From Kribbella sp. VKM Ac-2569 (GTDB taxonomy: Bacteria; Actinomycetota; Actinomycetes; Propionibacteriales; Kribbellaceae), in the NCBI RefSeq assembly GCF_004216905.1, contig NZ_SGXJ01000001.1, positions 620,001-684,000 of the forward strand: DNA of 64,000 bases. Direction: 5' to 3'. Made by a program: the position numbers and the translations under genes. Below are positions 1,336-7,825 of this stretch, in pieces. A model generated the notes under the pieces. That model was given only the letters and a program-made list of their open reading frames with translations. It did not search any database and had not been told where the DNA came from. Position 1 is the stretch's first letter, and the number at the start of each line of letters is the position of its first letter.

Positions 1336-2517
1336 GTGACGACGATCGCAGACGGCTCGAAGTCCCTTCCGTTGCTGTTTCTCGGGCAGAACACCGACCC
1401 GCACTCCGAGCGCGGTGTCGAGTGCCCGGGCGCGCTCCCGCCGGCGTCCGACCCGGATCTGGTCGAGCGGGCACTGAAGGCGAAGGCGGCGCTCGGTGAC
1501 CAGGTGTTCGTGCTCGGGCACCACTACCAGCGCGACGAGGTGATCCAGTTCGCGGACGTCACCGGTGACTCGTTCAAGCTCGCCCGCGACGCCGCGGCTC
1601 GCCCGGACGCGCCGTACATCGTGTTCTGCGGCGTGCACTTCATGGCCGAGTCCGCGGACATCCTCACCAACGACGAGCAGACGGTGATCCTGCCGGACCT
1701 CGCGGCCGGTTGCTCGATGGCGGACATGGCGCGCATCCAGCAGGTCGAGGCCGCCTGGGACGCGCTCGCCGACGCCGGTGTCGCGGACGTGACGGTTCCG
1801 GTCACCTACATGAACTCCAGCGCCGACATCAAGGCGTTCTGCGGCCGCAACGGCGGCGTCGTGTGTACGTCGAGCAACGCGGAGACCGCGCTGAACTGGG
1901 CGTTCGAGCAGGGCGAGAAGGTGCTCTTCCTCCCGGATCAGCACCTCGGCCGCAACACCGCCGTACTGCAGCTGGGTCTGTCGCTCGACGACTGCGTCGT
2001 GTACGACCCGCACAAGCCGGGCGGCGGCCTGACCCGCGAGCAGCTCGCGGCCGCGAAGATGATCCTGTGGCGCGGGCACTGCTCGGTGCACGGCCGCTTC
2101 ACCCCCGAGTCCGTCGACGACGTCCGCTCGCGGGTCCCCGGCGTGAACGTGATCGTGCACCCCGAGTGCCGCCACGAGGTGGTCACGAAGGCGGATCAGG
2201 TGGGCTCCACGGAGTACATCATCAGCGCCCTGGAAGCCGCTGAACCCGGTACGTCGTGGGCCGTCGGCACCGAACTCAACCTGGTCCAGCGCCTCGCGAA
2301 GCAGCACACCGACAAGAACATCGTCTTCCTCGACAAGACGGTCTGCTACTGCGCCACCATGAACCGCATCGACCTCCCGCACTTCGTCTGGGCCCTGGAG
2401 AACCTGGAAGCCGGCCACGTCGTCAACCCCATCAAGGTCGACGCCGACACCCAGCACTACGCCAAGGTAGCCCTCGACCGCATGCTCGCCCTCCCGGGCA
2501 AAACCGCCCGCGACTGA
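1336..2517 (+). CDS. nadA: Quinolinate synthase
   Basis: NadA condenses iminoaspartate with dihydroxyacetone phosphate to quinolinate, the second step of de novo NAD synthesis, using a [4Fe-4S] cluster. This 393-residue protein is the long form. The likely cluster ligands are Cys98 (FCGVHFMAESA), Cys249 (WRGHCSVHGRF) and Cys337 or Cys339 (KTVCYCATMNRI). Other family hallmarks are GHHYQRDEV near residue 61 and YDPHKPGGG near 223. The start is a GTG. No nadB or nadC lies beside it, so it appears to stand alone between the divergent nucleotidyltransferase gene and a convergent palindrome-flanked nuclease-like gene. The inverted repeat just downstream could serve as its terminator. Confidence 0.97.
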   Translation: MTTIADGSKSLPLLFLGQNTDPHSERGVECPGALPPASDPDLVERALKAKAALGDQVFVLGHHYQRDEVIQFADVTGDSFKLARDAAARPDAPYIVFCGVHFMAESADILTNDEQTVILPDLAAGCSMADMARIQQVEAAWDALADAGVADVTVPVTYMNSSADIKAFCGRNGGVVCTSSNAETALNWAFEQGEKVLFLPDQHLGRNTAVLQLGLSLDDCVVYDPHKPGGGLTREQLAAAKMILWRGHCSVHGRFTPESVDDVRSRVPGVNVIVHPECRHEVVTKADQVGSTEYIISALEAAEPGTSWAVGTELNLVQRLAKQHTDKNIVFLDKTVCYCATMNRIDLPHFVWALENLEAGHVVNPIKVDADTQHYAKVALDRMLALPGKTARD

Positions 2518-2534: not shown

Positions 2535-2622
2535 CGTTCGAGGGGATATCCGTCCGTACGCAGGGTTCTCTACTCGTACAAGAGGGGAGAACCCTGCACT
2601 TGCGCGGATATCCCCTCGAACG
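2535..2622. repeat. Long two-tier palindrome, element A
   Basis: An 18-base perfect outer inverted repeat, CGTTCGAGGGGATATCCG at 2535-2552 against 2605-2622, encloses an 11-base perfect inner repeat, GCAGGGTTCTC at 2560-2570 against 2587-2597. Seven-base unpaired segments separate the tiers and the loop is 16 bases. The 8-base palindrome GGATATCC occurs in both outer arms (2544-2551 and 2606-2613). It lies 14 bases beyond the stop codon of the AbiEi/DUF559 gene and 17 beyond nadA, so it may act as a bidirectional terminator. A diverged copy lies on the other side of the same gene. Confidence 0.9.
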
Positions 2623-2636
2623 AAGGACCGGCGGCG

Positions 2637-3584
2637 TCAGGCAGCTTTGCCGGCCTGGGCGAACGCTTGTCGAAGGGTCGTTGCGAGCACCAAGGGACGA
2701 TCGAGGTCCGCCCAGTCGGTCCGGACCACTGCGAGTCCCCGCGCTCGCAGCCGATCCTCGCGACGTTTCTCCTGGATCAGCACCTCCGGAGATCCCCCGC
2801 CGTACTTGAGCAGCCCGTCGAACTCCACCACCAGGTTGTACGCCGGGAAGTAGAAGTCCACCCGCCCGATGAGCCCGTGGCTGTCGTAGAACTCGACCTG
2901 CAGGACCGGCTCGGGGAACCCGTGTTCGCGCAGGAAGACCCGCAGACGCGACTCGCCGACGGACTCGGAGAGTTTGGTGCCGAAGCGCAGCGCCGCCCGT
3001 GCTGTGGTGCTTCCGGGCCAGAACTCGATCAGTTCCAGCAGACGCCGTACCCCGTCCTCACCCAGGTTGTCCGCTCGGAGAGCAGCGTCGATGTTCACGA
3101 CAGCCTGCTCGAACGACGCCGTACACGCGGACTCGACCGCCGCGCGCGACGCGCTGGTCGCCAATCGCCCTGCGACCACCGTCAGGTCATCCTGGGCCGG
3201 CTTGGCGACGTGGTGCTGAACACCGGCGACGACGCCACCGGCCAGCCCGTCCAGCCGGCTGACATGCACACGGTCCAGGCCCAGGCCCCACACAGGCAGG
3301 TCGTGGAGCACGAGTGACGACTGATGGCTGACGGCAACAGAGCCCGACCGCAATGAGTTCATCGCAGCGTGGATCTCCTGGCGATGTTTCCACCGGACAC
3401 GTTCCCAGGTCGGGAGCGCCGAGAGGTCGACAGTCTCGGCGTACTGGCCGCGCCGGATCCGCACCCACCGGCCGTCCTTCAGGTGGCGGAAGATCTGGTC
3501 AGCGGAGCAGCCGGACGTCAGCGCCTGGCTGCGGCTGAAGACGCCGCCCTGCTTCTCCGCGATCGCTTGGAGCCGTACATTCAC
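2637..3584 (-). CDS. AbiEi-type winged-helix / DUF559 (Vsr-fold) nuclease-like protein
   Basis: A 315-residue protein. Residues 1-50 resemble the AbiEi_4 winged helix-turn-helix found in type IV antitoxins. The C-terminal third is a DUF559/Vsr-like PD-(D/E)xK fold: Asp243 in RVDFYFPAYN, Glu254 and Asp256 in VVEFDG, Lys260, then KRREDRLRARGLAVVRTDW. Glu211 (VGESRLR) may complete the site. Such proteins are common as solitary genes in actinobacteria, and no AbiEii toxin partner is adjacent. The GTG start at 3584 gives MNVRLQAIAE; the frame stays open upstream through the flanking palindromic element, but that stretch is not part of the conserved family. The gene lies between two convergent genes and is bounded on both sides by related palindromes, suggesting a self-contained cassette. 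Its biochemical function is unknown. Confidence 0.8.
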   Translation of the reverse strand: MNVRLQAIAEKQGGVFSRSQALTSGCSADQIFRHLKDGRWVRIRRGQYAETVDLSALPTWERVRWKHRQEIHAAMNSLRSGSVAVSHQSSLVLHDLPVWGLGLDRVHVSRLDGLAGGVVAGVQHHVAKPAQDDLTVVAGRLATSASRAAVESACTASFEQAVVNIDAALRADNLGEDGVRRLLELIEFWPGSTTARAALRFGTKLSESVGESRLRVFLREHGFPEPVLQVEFYDSHGLIGRVDFYFPAYNLVVEFDGLLKYGGGSPEVLIQEKRREDRLRARGLAVVRTDWADLDRPLVLATTLRQAFAQAGKAA

Positions 3585-3638
3585 CCACCAAGCATCCCCC
3601 GGCCACCGCCTCCAGCGGTCCACGATCCGCCACCCTGT

Positions 3639-3731
3639 GGATATCCGTTCGAGCGGATATCCCCGCGTCTGTGGGGTTCTCTGCTCATATACGAGTAGAG
3701 AACCCAGCACGCGGCAGGTTATCCCCTCGTG
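3639..3731. repeat. Diverged palindrome, element B
   Basis: This is a second copy of element A's architecture, upstream of the AbiEi/DUF559 gene. The inner stem is GGGTTCTCTGCTC (3674-3686) against GAGTAGAGAACCC (3693-3705), with one G-T position and a 6-base loop. The outer arms are CGAGCGGATATCC (3650-3662) and GGTTATCCCCTCG (about 3717-3729), matching 11 of 13 pairs. GGATATCC occurs twice on the left side (3639-3646, 3655-3662). Right arms of A and B share GAGAACCC-W-GCAC and TATCCCCTCG. It lies in the 211-base gap between the nuclease-like gene and the end of the GT4 gene. Confidence 0.85.
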
Positions 3732-3795: not shown

Positions 3796-4983
3796 TTAGC
3801 GGGAGACGCGGGCGGGGGTGTACCAGTCGGCTAGGAGGTTGGGGAGGCGGTCGGGGCCCCAGCGGTCTACTGGGGTGATTCGGCCGTGTAACGAGGCGAG
3901 GCCCTTTGCGAGTTCGCCTACTACGTCGCCTTGCCACGGGACGGTGACGCCTTCGTCGGGGCCGACGATGACGGCGGGGCCGCCGCGGTCCACGCAGACC
4001 ACGGGGCAGCCGGAGGCGAGGGCTTCGGTGACGGCCCAGCCAGCGGCTTCGCGGAACGCGGGGGCGAGGAGCGCGTCGGCGCGGAACATGGCGGCCAGGA
4101 CCTCCTCGCGCGGCAGGGCGCCCATGAACTCGACGCGGTCGCGGACGCCGAGCTGCCAAGCCAGGCTTTCGGCGCGTCCCCAGTCGGGCCCGTCGCCGAT
4201 GATGCGCAGCTCCCAGTTGGCCGCCTCAGGACGGGCCAGCGCGCTGATCGCAATCAGGACGCCCTTCCACGGGATCAACCGTCCGACGAACAGCGCCGTC
4301 TTCACACCGCCAGCACCGAAGGGTTCATAAGGACCGGACGCGGTGAAACGCCGGATCGCCACGTTCGGCTGCACCACGATCTCCCGAGCGTACGGCGCGA
4401 ACGCCTCAGCGACATCGTTGTTCTGAGCAACCATCAGGTCGGCGGTCTGCGCCATCCGCCGCCCGGTCGCGCGGCGCCGGAGCCCGGTGTACGCACGTCG
4501 TACCAGCTCCCCCACCACACCGCGCGCACCGAGCCAGTGCGCCATCGACAGCGGCGCAGTCGTCGACCCGCCGACGGGTCCCCAGATCACCTTCGCCGAT
4601 GACGGCTCGACCACGCCGGCGCCCATCCAGTCGACCGCGAAGGTCAGATGGTGGATCACGTCGAACGACTGCTCCTCATGCAGACGCCGCGCCGTACGCC
4701 GCGCCAGCCCTTGCCACAGCGGGTAGTACCAGTACACGTCCGATGGCCGTCGCCGCAGCCGGAGAATCCACTTAGGCATCTCGAGCGGTACGACAGTCAG
4801 ACCGGGCACCGGCCGCGCCGCGAGCTCCTCCTCGATCTCGTGCACGAACTTGCCCCGGGTCAGCAGCCACACGTCGTGGTCCCGCGCCGCCGCCTTCGCC
4901 CACGCCCACCCGGCGCCCGGCTCGGACCCGCCTGTCGGCCGGCAGGCGTACGCGCTGAGCAGTACCTTCGGCCGGCCGTACAT
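3796..4983 (-). CDS. GT4-type glycosyltransferase
   Basis: A 395-residue GT-B glycosyltransferase. The N-terminal domain opens with VLLSAYACRPTGGSEPGAGW, and the C-terminal nucleotide-sugar domain has FVGRLIPWKG, IIGDGPDWGRAE and the acidic motif EAAGWAVTEALASGCPVV. No transmembrane segments are evident, so it acts at the inner face of the membrane. Donor and acceptor cannot be read from sequence. It is last in a minus-strand run with two cytidylyltransferase-fold proteins and a CDP-alcohol phosphotransferase, and its start codon touches the preceding stop. This ties it to assembly of the polysaccharide or phosphoglycan made by that cassette. Confidence 0.88.
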   Translation of the reverse strand: MYGRPKVLLSAYACRPTGGSEPGAGWAWAKAAARDHDVWLLTRGKFVHEIEEELAARPVPGLTVVPLEMPKWILRLRRRPSDVYWYYPLWQGLARRTARRLHEEQSFDVIHHLTFAVDWMGAGVVEPSSAKVIWGPVGGSTTAPLSMAHWLGARGVVGELVRRAYTGLRRRATGRRMAQTADLMVAQNNDVAEAFAPYAREIVVQPNVAIRRFTASGPYEPFGAGGVKTALFVGRLIPWKGVLIAISALARPEAANWELRIIGDGPDWGRAESLAWQLGVRDRVEFMGALPREEVLAAMFRADALLAPAFREAAGWAVTEALASGCPVVCVDRGGPAVIVGPDEGVTVPWQGDVVGELAKGLASLHGRITPVDRWGPDRLPNLLADWYTPARVSR

Positions 4984-5399
4984 CAGCTCATCCCCTCCAG
5001 GAGCCTGCGCAGATCGGTGCTCGAGGTCGAAGCGGTGTACGGGAAATAGTGCACCTGTGCGCCCACCTCACCCAGCAGCCTTTCCAGTCTGGTCCCCTTT
5101 TCCGTTCCCTTCCAGTCATCGCCCTTGAAGAGAACGTCGTACCGCAACTGCTGCCACATCTCGAACTTGTCGCTGGACCAGTCGCTGACCACCTCGTCGA
5201 CGAGGTCGAGCGCTCGGATGACATCCATCCGTTCCTCGTGCGGCACGACCGGCGGGCGGCCCTTGATCCGGGTCACCACATCGTCCTCGACGACGCCCGC
5301 GATCAGGTGGTCGCAGTACTCGCGGGCGCGGCGCAGGATGTTCAGGTGCCCGATGTGGAACATGTCGTACACCCCGGGCGCGTACCCGATGATCGCCAT
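4983..5399 (-). CDS. TagD-like cytidylyltransferase
   Basis: A 138-residue nucleotidyltransferase of the HxGH superfamily. It has the nucleotide-binding motif FHIGH in GVYDMFHIGHLNIL, the substrate loop RPPVVPHEERMDV, the KGDDWKG motif and the C-terminal TASTSSTDLR (the RTxGISTT-type motif). All motifs of glycerol-3-phosphate cytidylyltransferase are present and the length is right. The probable reaction is CTP plus a polyol phosphate giving a CDP-polyol; the polyol is unproven. ATG at 5399 gives MAIIGYAPG; longer forms would run into the upstream gene. Its start overlaps the stop of the CDP-alcohol phosphotransferase gene by one base, so product and user of the activated headgroup are co-translated. 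Confidence 0.88.
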   Translation of the reverse strand: MAIIGYAPGVYDMFHIGHLNILRRAREYCDHLIAGVVEDDVVTRIKGRPPVVPHEERMDVIRALDLVDEVVSDWSSDKFEMWQQLRYDVLFKGDDWKGTEKGTRLERLLGEVGAQVHYFPYTASTSSTDLRRLLEGMS

Positions 5400-6124
5400 C
5401 AGGCGCGCACCCCCAGCACGGCCATCTCCCGGTACCACTTCCCGACCGCGGCCGCGAGGAACAGCAGGTTCAGCGCGAGCAGAGCGCCGTACAGCACGAC
5501 GAACAACGACGGCGTACCGAAGGCGAGGAAGACCAGGCACAGTACGCCGTAGTCGGTCGGTGCGATGAGCAACGACTTGACCACGGAATCGCCGCGCTCG
5601 TTGGGTTTCGAGGAAGCGCCGTGCCGCCGCCGCAGCTGGTCGATCAGGATCAGCCCGAAGAACAGCACCGACGACACGCACACGTACGCGAGCGGGACCA
5701 GCAGCACCAGATCGTTGTCAAAGGCATCGAAACGGTAGAACGAGATCAGTACGGCGCTGTGCAGCAGCACGATCTTGACCGCGTCGATCATGTGGTCGAG
5801 CCACTCCCCCAACGGCGATCCGCCGCCCCGGAGCCGGGCCAGCTGCCCGTCCGCGGAGTCCAGCCCGTATCCGAGCACGAGCAACAACGTCACCACCAGC
5901 GCGAGGCCGAGTGACGGGCGCACGCAGGCCAGCAGCACGATCCCGACCAGCGAGCAGAACCCGGAGGCGAGGCTCACCTGGTTCGGTGTCCGCTTTCCGA
6001 GGAACGCGGCGGCTGCGAACATCCGCCCGATCCGCCGGTTCACGAACCGCGAGTACGCCGGCGTACCGGCCGACGGCTTCTGCGCCCGGGACAGCTGCGC
6101 GACAGTCTGCCGCAGCCCACTCAT
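5399..6124 (-). CDS. CDP-alcohol phosphatidyltransferase family membrane protein
   Basis: A 241-residue integral membrane protein with several hydrophobic segments. It carries the full family signature DG-x2-AR-x8-G-x3-D-x3-D, beginning DGQLAR and ending EWLDHMID near residue 105. These enzymes transfer a phospho-alcohol from a CDP-linked donor to an alcohol acceptor, releasing CMP. It lies between two cytidylyltransferase-fold genes, overlapping the upstream one by four bases and the downstream one by one. The order suggests a dedicated pathway in which a CDP-polyol is made and its phospho-headgroup moved onto a lipid or glycan. Housekeeping phosphatidylglycerol or phosphatidylinositol synthesis is less likely given the glycosyltransferases on both sides. 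The acceptor is unknown. Confidence 0.88.
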   Translation of the reverse strand: MSGLRQTVAQLSRAQKPSAGTPAYSRFVNRRIGRMFAAAAFLGKRTPNQVSLASGFCSLVGIVLLACVRPSLGLALVVTLLLVLGYGLDSADGQLARLRGGGSPLGEWLDHMIDAVKIVLLHSAVLISFYRFDAFDNDLVLLVPLAYVCVSSVLFFGLILIDQLRRRHGASSKPNERGDSVVKSLLIAPTDYGVLCLVFLAFGTPSLFVVLYGALLALNLLFLAAAVGKWYREMAVLGVRA

Positions 6125-6549
6125 GCGACGTTCGAACTGCGGGACTGCCGCTGGTCGATCGCGGCGCGCAGGATCGGGCTGCGGGAGCCGCGCCCGGCGG
6201 GCAGGACGGTGATCAGCCCCGCCGGAATCCCATCGAGCTCGTCCACCCCCAGTACGCCGTCCGTGGCGCCGGCAGCGAATACGGTCTGAACCCCCAGTAC
6301 GCCGGTCAGCCACTCGGACCGTACGTCGTCCACGGCAACCACCTCGTCGACGCACCGCAGGTGCTCGACGATCTGCGCCCGCTCGAGCAGCGGCACGAAC
6401 GGCCGCCCGCCCCACGCGTCCAGCGCCCAGTCGTCGGACAGCACCGCCACGACGAGCCGGTCGCAGTGCCGCCGCGCCCGCTCGAGCACGTCGACGTGCC
6501 CTACGTGGAACAGGTCGAAGACCCCGGCCACGCATCCAACCCGGGGCAC
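6121..6549 (-). CDS. Diverged cytidylyltransferase-fold protein
   Basis: A 142-residue HxGH nucleotidyltransferase-like protein with GVFDLFHVGHVDVLERARRH and RPFVPLLERAQIVEHL. Unlike its neighbour it lacks KGDDW (here FAAGATDG), and the C-terminal ISTT motif is replaced by GRGSRSPILR. Those positions contact the alpha phosphate and substrate in TagD. It may therefore use another substrate or have lost activity. The start is taken as GTG at 6549, with AAGG seven bases upstream, giving MPRVGCVAGVFD. A TTG at 6573 behind an AGGAG is a real alternative adding eight residues. Its stop overlaps the start of the CDP-alcohol phosphotransferase gene. It follows the GT4 gene after about 70 bases. Confidence 0.75.
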   Translation of the reverse strand: MPRVGCVAGVFDLFHVGHVDVLERARRHCDRLVVAVLSDDWALDAWGGRPFVPLLERAQIVEHLRCVDEVVAVDDVRSEWLTGVLGVQTVFAAGATDGVLGVDELDGIPAGLITVLPAGRGSRSPILRAAIDQRQSRSSNVA

Positions 6550-6619
6550 ACTGCCCACCCTTACATCCCCCAACGCAAACTCCTGAATTCCGTCCGGCAC
6601 GACGCCGCCCCCTGCGTCT

Positions 6620-7825
6620 TCATACCCGTGGTTCCGTGCGCGCCCGGCCGTTGGCGGAGTGCCGGGCGATCGCATCGGTGTAGATCCTTTCCGTGGCCTC
6701 CAGGTCACGCTCCGGTGTGAAGCGTTCCAGATAGACCTGACGGGCTCGTTCGCCGAAGGCTATCGAAGTCTCGGGATCAGCCACCAACCCGATCGCTTTC
6801 CGCAATCCTTCCGGATCGCCGGGCGCGGTCAGCGCACCGGATTCACCGTCGTCAACCAGCTCCGCGAGCGCCCCGAGCCGGGACGCGACCACGGGCACCC
6901 CGTGCGCGAAAGCCTCCACCACTACGAGCCCGAAGCTCTCATACGACCGCGCCGGTACGACGGCGACGCGCGCGGACCGCAGCTGTTCCATGCCGTCCGC
7001 CCACGGCAGTTGACCAAGCACCTGAATCGACAGGTCTTTCCGGGCGCGTTCCTCGGCCGCCGCCCGCAGCGGACCATCGCCCACCACAACCAATCGGCCG
7101 AGCGACGCGTCCCACACCTGCAGAAGATCCGCGAACCCCTTGTCCTCGCTCAACCGCCCGAGGAACACCACCGCGTCCCCCGCACCGCTGCGCACCGCAC
7201 CCGAATGCGGTATGGCGTGCGGCTTCACCACGAACCGCTCCGGATCGAACCCGGCCGCGGCGTACCGGTCCCGCACGAACTCGGACGGTACGACGAACGT
7301 CCCGACGTACCGCTGCCAAGTGTTCAAGGCGTTGTGCACGCCGATGCTCGTCGCCAGCGGCAACGTCTGCACCCGCGAGTCGCGGTAGCAACCGTGCTTC
7401 ACGGCCGCCAGCGGCACCTTGCCGATGCAGGACTCGCACGGTCTGCCGTCGCGCTGCAGAACACCGTTCGCACACAGCAGCCGGAAGTTGTGCAACGTCG
7501 CCACGACCGGAAGGTTCAGCCGGTACGCCGCCCGCAGGACCGAGGGGCTGAACAACGGGAAAGTGTTGTGCACATGCACCACATCGGGCCGCTGCGCCTG
7601 CAATAGCTGTGTTAAATCGCGTTCCGCCGAAAATGACCAAACGGAGCGAGACGGTAACAGTGCGCGATCTTTTCGCCCCATCTCGGCGATGTCGTCGCTG
7701 TTCCGGGCGTACAGGTCGATGTCATGTCCTGAGTTACTCAACAAATCAACCGTTTGCGCGACAACCGTGTTCTCCCCACTGGGTTGACCGGTCCGGTAAC
7801 GGTTGTGCAACATGGCGACCCGCAT
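6620..7825 (-). CDS. GT4-type glycosyltransferase (paralogue of the gene at 60450)
   Basis: A 401-residue GT-B glycosyltransferase. It begins MRVAMLHNRYRTGQPSGEN, has a family-typical DVVHVHNTFPLFSPSVL segment near residue 80, a four-Cys loop region (LLCANG, PCESCIGK), and the C-terminal FLGRLSEDKGF and ESFGLVVVEAFAHGVPVV. The N-terminal segment HNRYR-x4-SGEN and the HVHNTFPL block recur in the glycosyltransferase at 60450, so the two are paralogues at opposite ends of the window. It is the first gene of the minus-strand cassette and is divergent from a beta-helix gene. An AAGG lies seven bases before the ATG. The sugar donor is unknown. Confidence 0.9.
   Translation of the reverse strand: MRVAMLHNRYRTGQPSGENTVVAQTVDLLSNSGHDIDLYARNSDDIAEMGRKDRALLPSRSVWSFSAERDLTQLLQAQRPDVVHVHNTFPLFSPSVLRAAYRLNLPVVATLHNFRLLCANGVLQRDGRPCESCIGKVPLAAVKHGCYRDSRVQTLPLATSIGVHNALNTWQRYVGTFVVPSEFVRDRYAAAGFDPERFVVKPHAIPHSGAVRSGAGDAVVFLGRLSEDKGFADLLQVWDASLGRLVVVGDGPLRAAAEERARKDLSIQVLGQLPWADGMEQLRSARVAVVPARSYESFGLVVVEAFAHGVPVVASRLGALAELVDDGESGALTAPGDPEGLRKAIGLVADPETSIAFGERARQVYLERFTPERDLEATERIYTDAIARHSANGRARTEPRV

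Follow-up and report, generated by a model that had tools for sequence, protein, structure and literature searches.

The nuclease gene and the two palindromes that flank it in the window, i.e., the whole 64,000-nt stretch of Kribbella sp. VKM Ac-2569 DNA that was analysed, probably belong to a phylum-wide family of selfish systems in which a nuclease mobilises its own palindromes in trans. Gene families and palindrome families are paired and diverge together, the palindromes are dispersed, and the units are present, absent or replaced at given sites. The nuclease would recognise and cut its palindrome, and repair or strand transfer would then place copies elsewhere; we regard mobility of the repeats by the nuclease as a well-supported inference from these patterns. 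Where the earlier note described an isolated cassette, we found low-copy genes at recurrent sites, accompanied by many solo ends.

In the window, the end unit P1 (2535–2622) lies on the 3' side of the nuclease gene and is a two-tier palindrome with arms at 2535–2575 and 2582–2622, its outer tier being GGATATCC and its inner tier GGGTTCTC/GAGAACCC. The palindrome covariance model R1 matched it at 622538–622621 of contig C1. The second end unit, P2 (3646–3729; arms 3650–3689 and 3690–3729), is likewise a two-tier palindrome matched by the covariance model, and is located on the 5' side, ~62 nt upstream of the nuclease start codon. The related two-tier palindromes that had been noticed on both sides of the gene were thus confirmed; a further GGATATCC palindrome at 3639–3662, which abuts and overlaps P2, had been missed. 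P1 and P2 are 75% identical over 84 nt. The outer 17-mer GGATATCCCCTCGAACG, with up to three mismatches, occurs four times in the window, every time at the P1/P2 locus (0.17 expected), and none of 100 shuffled windows contained four occurrences. Single-strand folding gave −69.9 kcal/mol for P1 (z −12.0) and −53.0 kcal/mol for P2 (z −7.3). The nuclease gene (2637–3584, minus strand) encodes 315 aa from a GTG start at 3584 to a stop at 2637–2639, while a longer open reading frame starting at 3710 runs into P2. As the earlier note had stated, the cassette sits between two convergent genes, nadA (1336–2517, plus strand) and a GT4 glycosyltransferase (3796–4983, minus strand), and there is no partner toxin between them; with nadA and GT4 as the neighbours, an adjacent AbiEii nucleotidyltransferase is absent. 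Beside GT4 genes, positions 4983–6720 of the window hold two nucleotidyltransferase-like reading frames and one CDP-alcohol phosphatidyltransferase-like reading frame, which from their translations look like an ordinary glycolipid or glycopolymer cluster.

The encoded protein combines an N-terminal AbiEi_4 winged-helix domain (residues 4–49, 3438–3575, minus strand; Pfam PF13338, E 7.4e-9) with a Vsr/DUF559-like nuclease domain (residues 206–313, 2646–2969, minus strand) assigned by fold comparison and conservation. The AlphaFold model of the 315 aa has a mean pLDDT of 92.2. Comparison by VIA-align indicated similarity of residues 1–203 of the model to the AbiEi antitoxin 6y8q (Z 8.9); for residues 206–313 the scores were Z 13.1 with the homing endonuclease I-Bth0305I, Z 12.2 with NGO0050 and Z 11.0 with Vsr, in agreement with the winged helix and Vsr fold proposed from the translation. 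The residues that had been suggested as catalytic, D243 (2856–2858), E254 (2823–2825), D256 (2817–2819) and K260 (2805–2807; all codons on the minus strand), show little or no variation among 31 homologues, and the same holds for E211. PF13338 was matched by 31/31 homologues; DUF559 matches were weak and involved nine of the 31 (best E 3e-4), and the profile search gave none for the window protein itself. PADLOC AbiEi models match the gene, PHROGs matches were weak and of the endonuclease type, and NCBIfam gave no match for the protein. Based on its fold and conserved residues, the protein is a putative nuclease.

At other sites in Kribbella, homologues of the gene also have hairpins on both sides; their sequence differs between nuclease subfamilies, and the left and right hairpins of one gene are alike. 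Matched upstream and downstream repeats (Smith–Waterman score of at least 32) were present at 81% of 141 loci from many genera, compared with 0/133 displaced windows and 1/28 nadA loci as controls. After removal of duplicates and addition of 60 Kribbella loci, and at a score of at least 34, 112 of the 145 non-degenerate loci had matched ends, leaving ~23% with no detectable matched ends, and 0/116 displaced windows had them; these counts cannot be read as probabilities because loci of related species at one site are non-independent. The palindromes therefore preferentially flank these genes, which answers the check proposed in the earlier note, and matched ends are present also at some homologues from other classes of the phylum. 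The end repeats are palindromic, typically 60–90 nt long, and oriented inverted at 59 and direct at 52 of 111 loci.

To relate palindromes and genomes, 13 palindromes, each taken from beside a single homologue, served as queries against their 10 source genomes (7 genera). The result was strictly diagonal in all 150 of the 150 matches listed: among these matches, each genome carried the palindrome of its own gene alone, with copies mostly dispersed, and the genome of the window carried the families of its several paralogues. The palindrome flanking the gene is itself dispersed in the same genome, as in REP/RAYT. When end sequences were compared, the normalised similarity was 0.57 for the two ends of one gene, and between genes it was 0.68 for proteins at least 90% identical, 0.24 at 65–75% and 0.15 at 55–65%, with a background of 0.12. 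The palindromes diverge with the protein, and the two ends of a gene stay alike. Across 36 Kribbella genomes, the more closely the best nuclease resembled the window protein, the higher was the score of the best copy of the window palindrome (Spearman rho 0.71, phylogenetically uncorrected). In the genome of the window, none of seven paralogues lies near a copy of the window palindrome, which at first suggested a mere coincidence of gene and palindrome; this view was rejected because the paralogues carry their own, different palindromes. The earlier note took genome-wide repeats with no association with DUF559 genes as evidence against its reading; genome-wide dispersal was indeed seen, and the association is strong and lineage-specific. 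Taken as an association, there is strong support for reading the palindromes as the ends of nuclease-linked elements.

Most Kribbella genomes contain an orthologue group in which the catalytic motif is lost (C6:231838-232767, locus L035, in the genome of the window; also L291–L310), with identities of about 60–95%. None of the 20 members examined has matched end repeats, so in this one orthologue group the repeats were lost together with the active site. The pattern used to recognise an intact active site worked for this group and misfiled distant homologues; the split into intact and degenerate genes was therefore applied to the degenerate Kribbella group alone. The group is possibly a domesticated, non-cutting descendant.

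A covariance model of the window palindrome, trained on 24 copies from its own genome (8.43 Mb searched), located ~28 distinct dispersed sites there and copies in 33 of 37 Kribbella genomes, with none in 21 genomes from other genera of the order; copy number varied widely between genomes. Solo copies in the genome of the window were found between convergent genes in 12 of 22 cases, with five in tandem and five unclassed gaps; the corresponding numbers for G043, a genome from another genus, were 10 convergent and 7 tandem of 19. Pooled, 22 convergent and 12 tandem copies among 41, with one divergent, place the solo copies mainly 3' of genes, and random control positions from the same loci fell mostly within genes. 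Searches of the palindromes against Rfam returned nothing but sub-threshold chance matches, and a known RNA family was rejected as their identity. Two solo-hairpin loci of the window's genome (L004 and L012) have ~580 nt in common beyond the hairpin, at 93% identity; some copies are thus part of longer intergenic repeats in which further motifs recur.

The anatomy of the units was clearest in two genomes. The G043 unit of ~95 nt consists of two palindromes plus a tail, with boundaries common to 22 copies, and the same unit stands at both ends of the G043 gene, inverted and with the tails inward. The Jiangella-type genome G115 has a 1246-bp cassette with inverted ends beginning GRAATGATCACG, together with five miniatures of 172–214 bp that carry both ends of this cassette. 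No convincing target-site duplication was found at the six two-ended Jiangella-type elements, whose ends are known only to within a few nt.

The comparison of orthologous sites revealed presence, absence and replacement. At the nadA–GT4 junction, nadA DNA is 96–97% identical between species and the nuclease genes are 71–72% identical; the nadA-site genes of those species are closer (82–84% DNA) to genes at another site in other species, and in G022 the gene is inverted. The empty junctions that the earlier note had proposed to look for exist: the nadA–GT4 gap is 0–12 nt in six genomes (G018, G013, G029, G008, G020 and G026) and holds no palindrome. At this junction G016 has a decayed nuclease remnant, and G017 lacks a gene and contains a solo hairpin belonging to another family. 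In G023 the gap of 118 nt (L100) is filled by a different palindromic repeat, GGCGACCTTGAACACC...GGTGTTCAAGGTCGCC. One solo copy in the genome of the window (L016) is missing from the same gap in its closest relatives, in a convergent gap that is too variable to read the junctions of an empty site. The inserts in this gap (L016:1476-1609) and its counterparts (L241–L270) differ between almost all Kribbella species; they measure 0 to ~1.2 kb and include small genes as well as other palindromes, and the gap can be described as a turnover hot spot. Cassettes at the same site in opposite orientation were observed at two or more sites (L124 compared with L126/L174; L105 compared with L106), which suggests flipping between inverted ends or re-insertion. 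Across many species, nuclease genes recur at a restricted set of syntenic sites, and close homologues are missing from some Kribbella genomes. In 11 Kribbella genomes, no two paralogues of the same genome exceed 65% identity; each lineage has one copy per genome there, and recent near-identical cassette duplicates are absent. The gene itself thus appears to move rarely. Few gene copies alongside many dispersed ends are, as we read it, the RAYT pattern.

We propose the following mechanism. A low-copy gene encodes a winged-helix/Vsr-fold nuclease and is flanked by palindromic end units of about 70–95 nt, which are also dispersed, either as solo copies (Kribbella, G043) or as two-ended inverted miniatures (the Jiangella-type G115). 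The winged helix and the nuclease would recognise the palindrome of their own lineage in hairpin, cruciform or duplex form, and the nuclease would cut next to it. Resolution of the cut with no target-site duplication would copy the end unit into gaps downstream of genes and, now and then, copy the whole cassette into such gaps likewise. From this cutting and copying, the nuclease would therefore mobilise the solo copies in trans, the role that RAYTs are taken to have for REPs, with an unrelated fold. In favour of this explanation are the matched ends, the diagonal matrix, co-divergence and the correlation across Kribbella, the repeat-free degenerate orthologues, the common boundaries of solo copies, the miniatures, replacement and empty gaps at the nadA site, the lack of a Y1 gene, the 3' position of solo copies, and a fold that most resembles those of a homing endonuclease and of Vsr. 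Against it, the loci compared included no filled and empty pair within one species, so no movement event was caught; near-identical cassette duplicates are lacking, and ~23% of the non-degenerate loci are those with no detectable matched ends. The limited recurrent sites and the divergence of paralogues argue against frequent movement of the cassette.

The main rival is a homing nuclease for which the palindromes are targets: another agent would spread or maintain the palindromes, break repair would copy the gene into them, and gene conversion would homogenise them. We consider this unlikely, although the nearest solved fold is that of a homing endonuclease, the two ends of a gene evolve in step, the G017 junction has a hairpin with no gene, and target-site duplications were not found. 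The empty nadA junctions lack any palindrome, the strict match of one lineage with one palindrome in 7 genera is hard to obtain from palindromes that spread on their own, there are miniatures carrying both cassette ends, and the analysis turned up no alternative mobiliser. Homing accompanied by gene conversion between palindromes may nevertheless be part of the same mechanism.

It is considerably less probable that the palindromes are operators for the AbiEi-type winged helix, serving autoregulation and a regulon, and not element ends. AbiEi antitoxins act on their own promoter by binding to inverted repeats there, the winged helix here is AbiEi-like, and one palindrome is positioned ~62 nt upstream of the start codon; however, the second is on the 3' side of the gene, solo copies with their mainly 3' location are in the wrong place for operators, conservation extends to the nuclease domain, whose loss accompanies repeat loss, and the solo site examined was unconserved between species. 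Least probable of all, and in our opinion hardly credible, is a domesticated or defence role, e.g., DNA maintenance or phage restriction, in which the palindromes would spare self DNA and their dispersal would be secondary. The persistence of the genes at recurrent syntenic sites in many species, the single copy per lineage and the PADLOC matches would fit such a host-useful system; the absence of close homologues from some Kribbella genomes, replacement and decay (the G016 remnant), the lack of an AbiEii partner and the wide variation in palindrome copy number do not.

Mobilisation of the palindromes by their own nuclease is the reading that we prefer, and we lean towards a broader interpretation as well: that Actinomycetota possess an independently evolved counterpart of REP/RAYT, in which a Vsr-fold winged-helix nuclease recognises and mobilises its own palindrome in trans. 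The nuclease would then represent a new class of enzyme for transposition or homing, and the enzyme–DNA code would be lineage-specific and evolve fast. This appears to be a small selfish DNA system of a kind not described before, with an enzyme unrelated to any known repeat spreader. If true, the REP strategy, which joins one low-copy enzyme to many dispersed palindromes, evolved independently around an unrelated nuclease, a function is gained for a widespread gene family whose present annotation is just AbiEi-like or unknown, and a class of intergenic repeats across Actinomycetota is explained. The diagonal pairing of enzymes and palindromes would offer a ready-made set for deciphering a protein–DNA recognition code, and the spread of REP-like repeats would become testable in a second system. 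No description of an AbiEi-, Vsr- or DUF559-type gene with palindrome families was found in the open-access library searched, so novelty is provisional.

Among known systems, AbiEi antitoxins of type IV toxin–antitoxin pairs have the same N-terminal winged helix, with the fold of residues 1–203, but the protein described here has an additional nuclease domain and no adjacent AbiEii toxin. I-Bth0305I, Vsr and DUF559 nucleases resemble its C-terminal part in fold, conserved acidic residues and lysine, whereas here the nuclease is not in an intron, is fused to an AbiEi-type domain and is tied to palindrome families. With regard to homing endonuclease elements, in which the gene interrupts its own recognition site in an intron, intein or gene, the gene here is intergenic and palindrome-flanked, and empty sites are palindrome-free. 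The Jiangella-type miniatures, with the terminal repeats of a gene-bearing element, recall MITE/IS partnerships; however, there is no known transposase fold, the gene is essentially single copy, the end repeats are both inverted and direct (59 and 52 of 111 loci), and the want of a convincing target-site duplication at the six Jiangella-type elements sets the family apart from MITE/IS pairs and classical insertion sequences alike.

The closest likeness is to REP/RAYT. In that system (REPtron; TnpA-REP), a low-copy enzyme gene is flanked by lineage-specific palindromes that are dispersed solo or paired, mainly 3' of genes, and the RAYT-linked repeats are of the GTAG type (PMC3116915, PMC8266576, PMC3733652); CGTC-tagged REPs have been reported with no dedicated enzyme (PMC3733652). 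The present palindromes resemble the latter in being dispersed with no RAYT, but each family has an enzyme, and reading by eye showed no common tag: no tetranucleotide foot was seen to be common to the Kribbella, Jiangella-type and G043/G196-type end units, with GACG near some. A PF01797 (Y1) gene was found in none of 13 palindrome-carrying genomes, the control search being positive in E. coli and others, and a RAYT was rejected as the mobiliser. RAYTs are HUH Y1 transposases, whereas the enzyme here has a Vsr-fold nuclease and a winged helix, and the units are longer, at about 70–95 nt. The REP/RAYT-like logic proposed in the earlier note is apt as a comparison, with dispersed, lineage-specific ends and an unrelated enzyme that would recognise, cut and move them.
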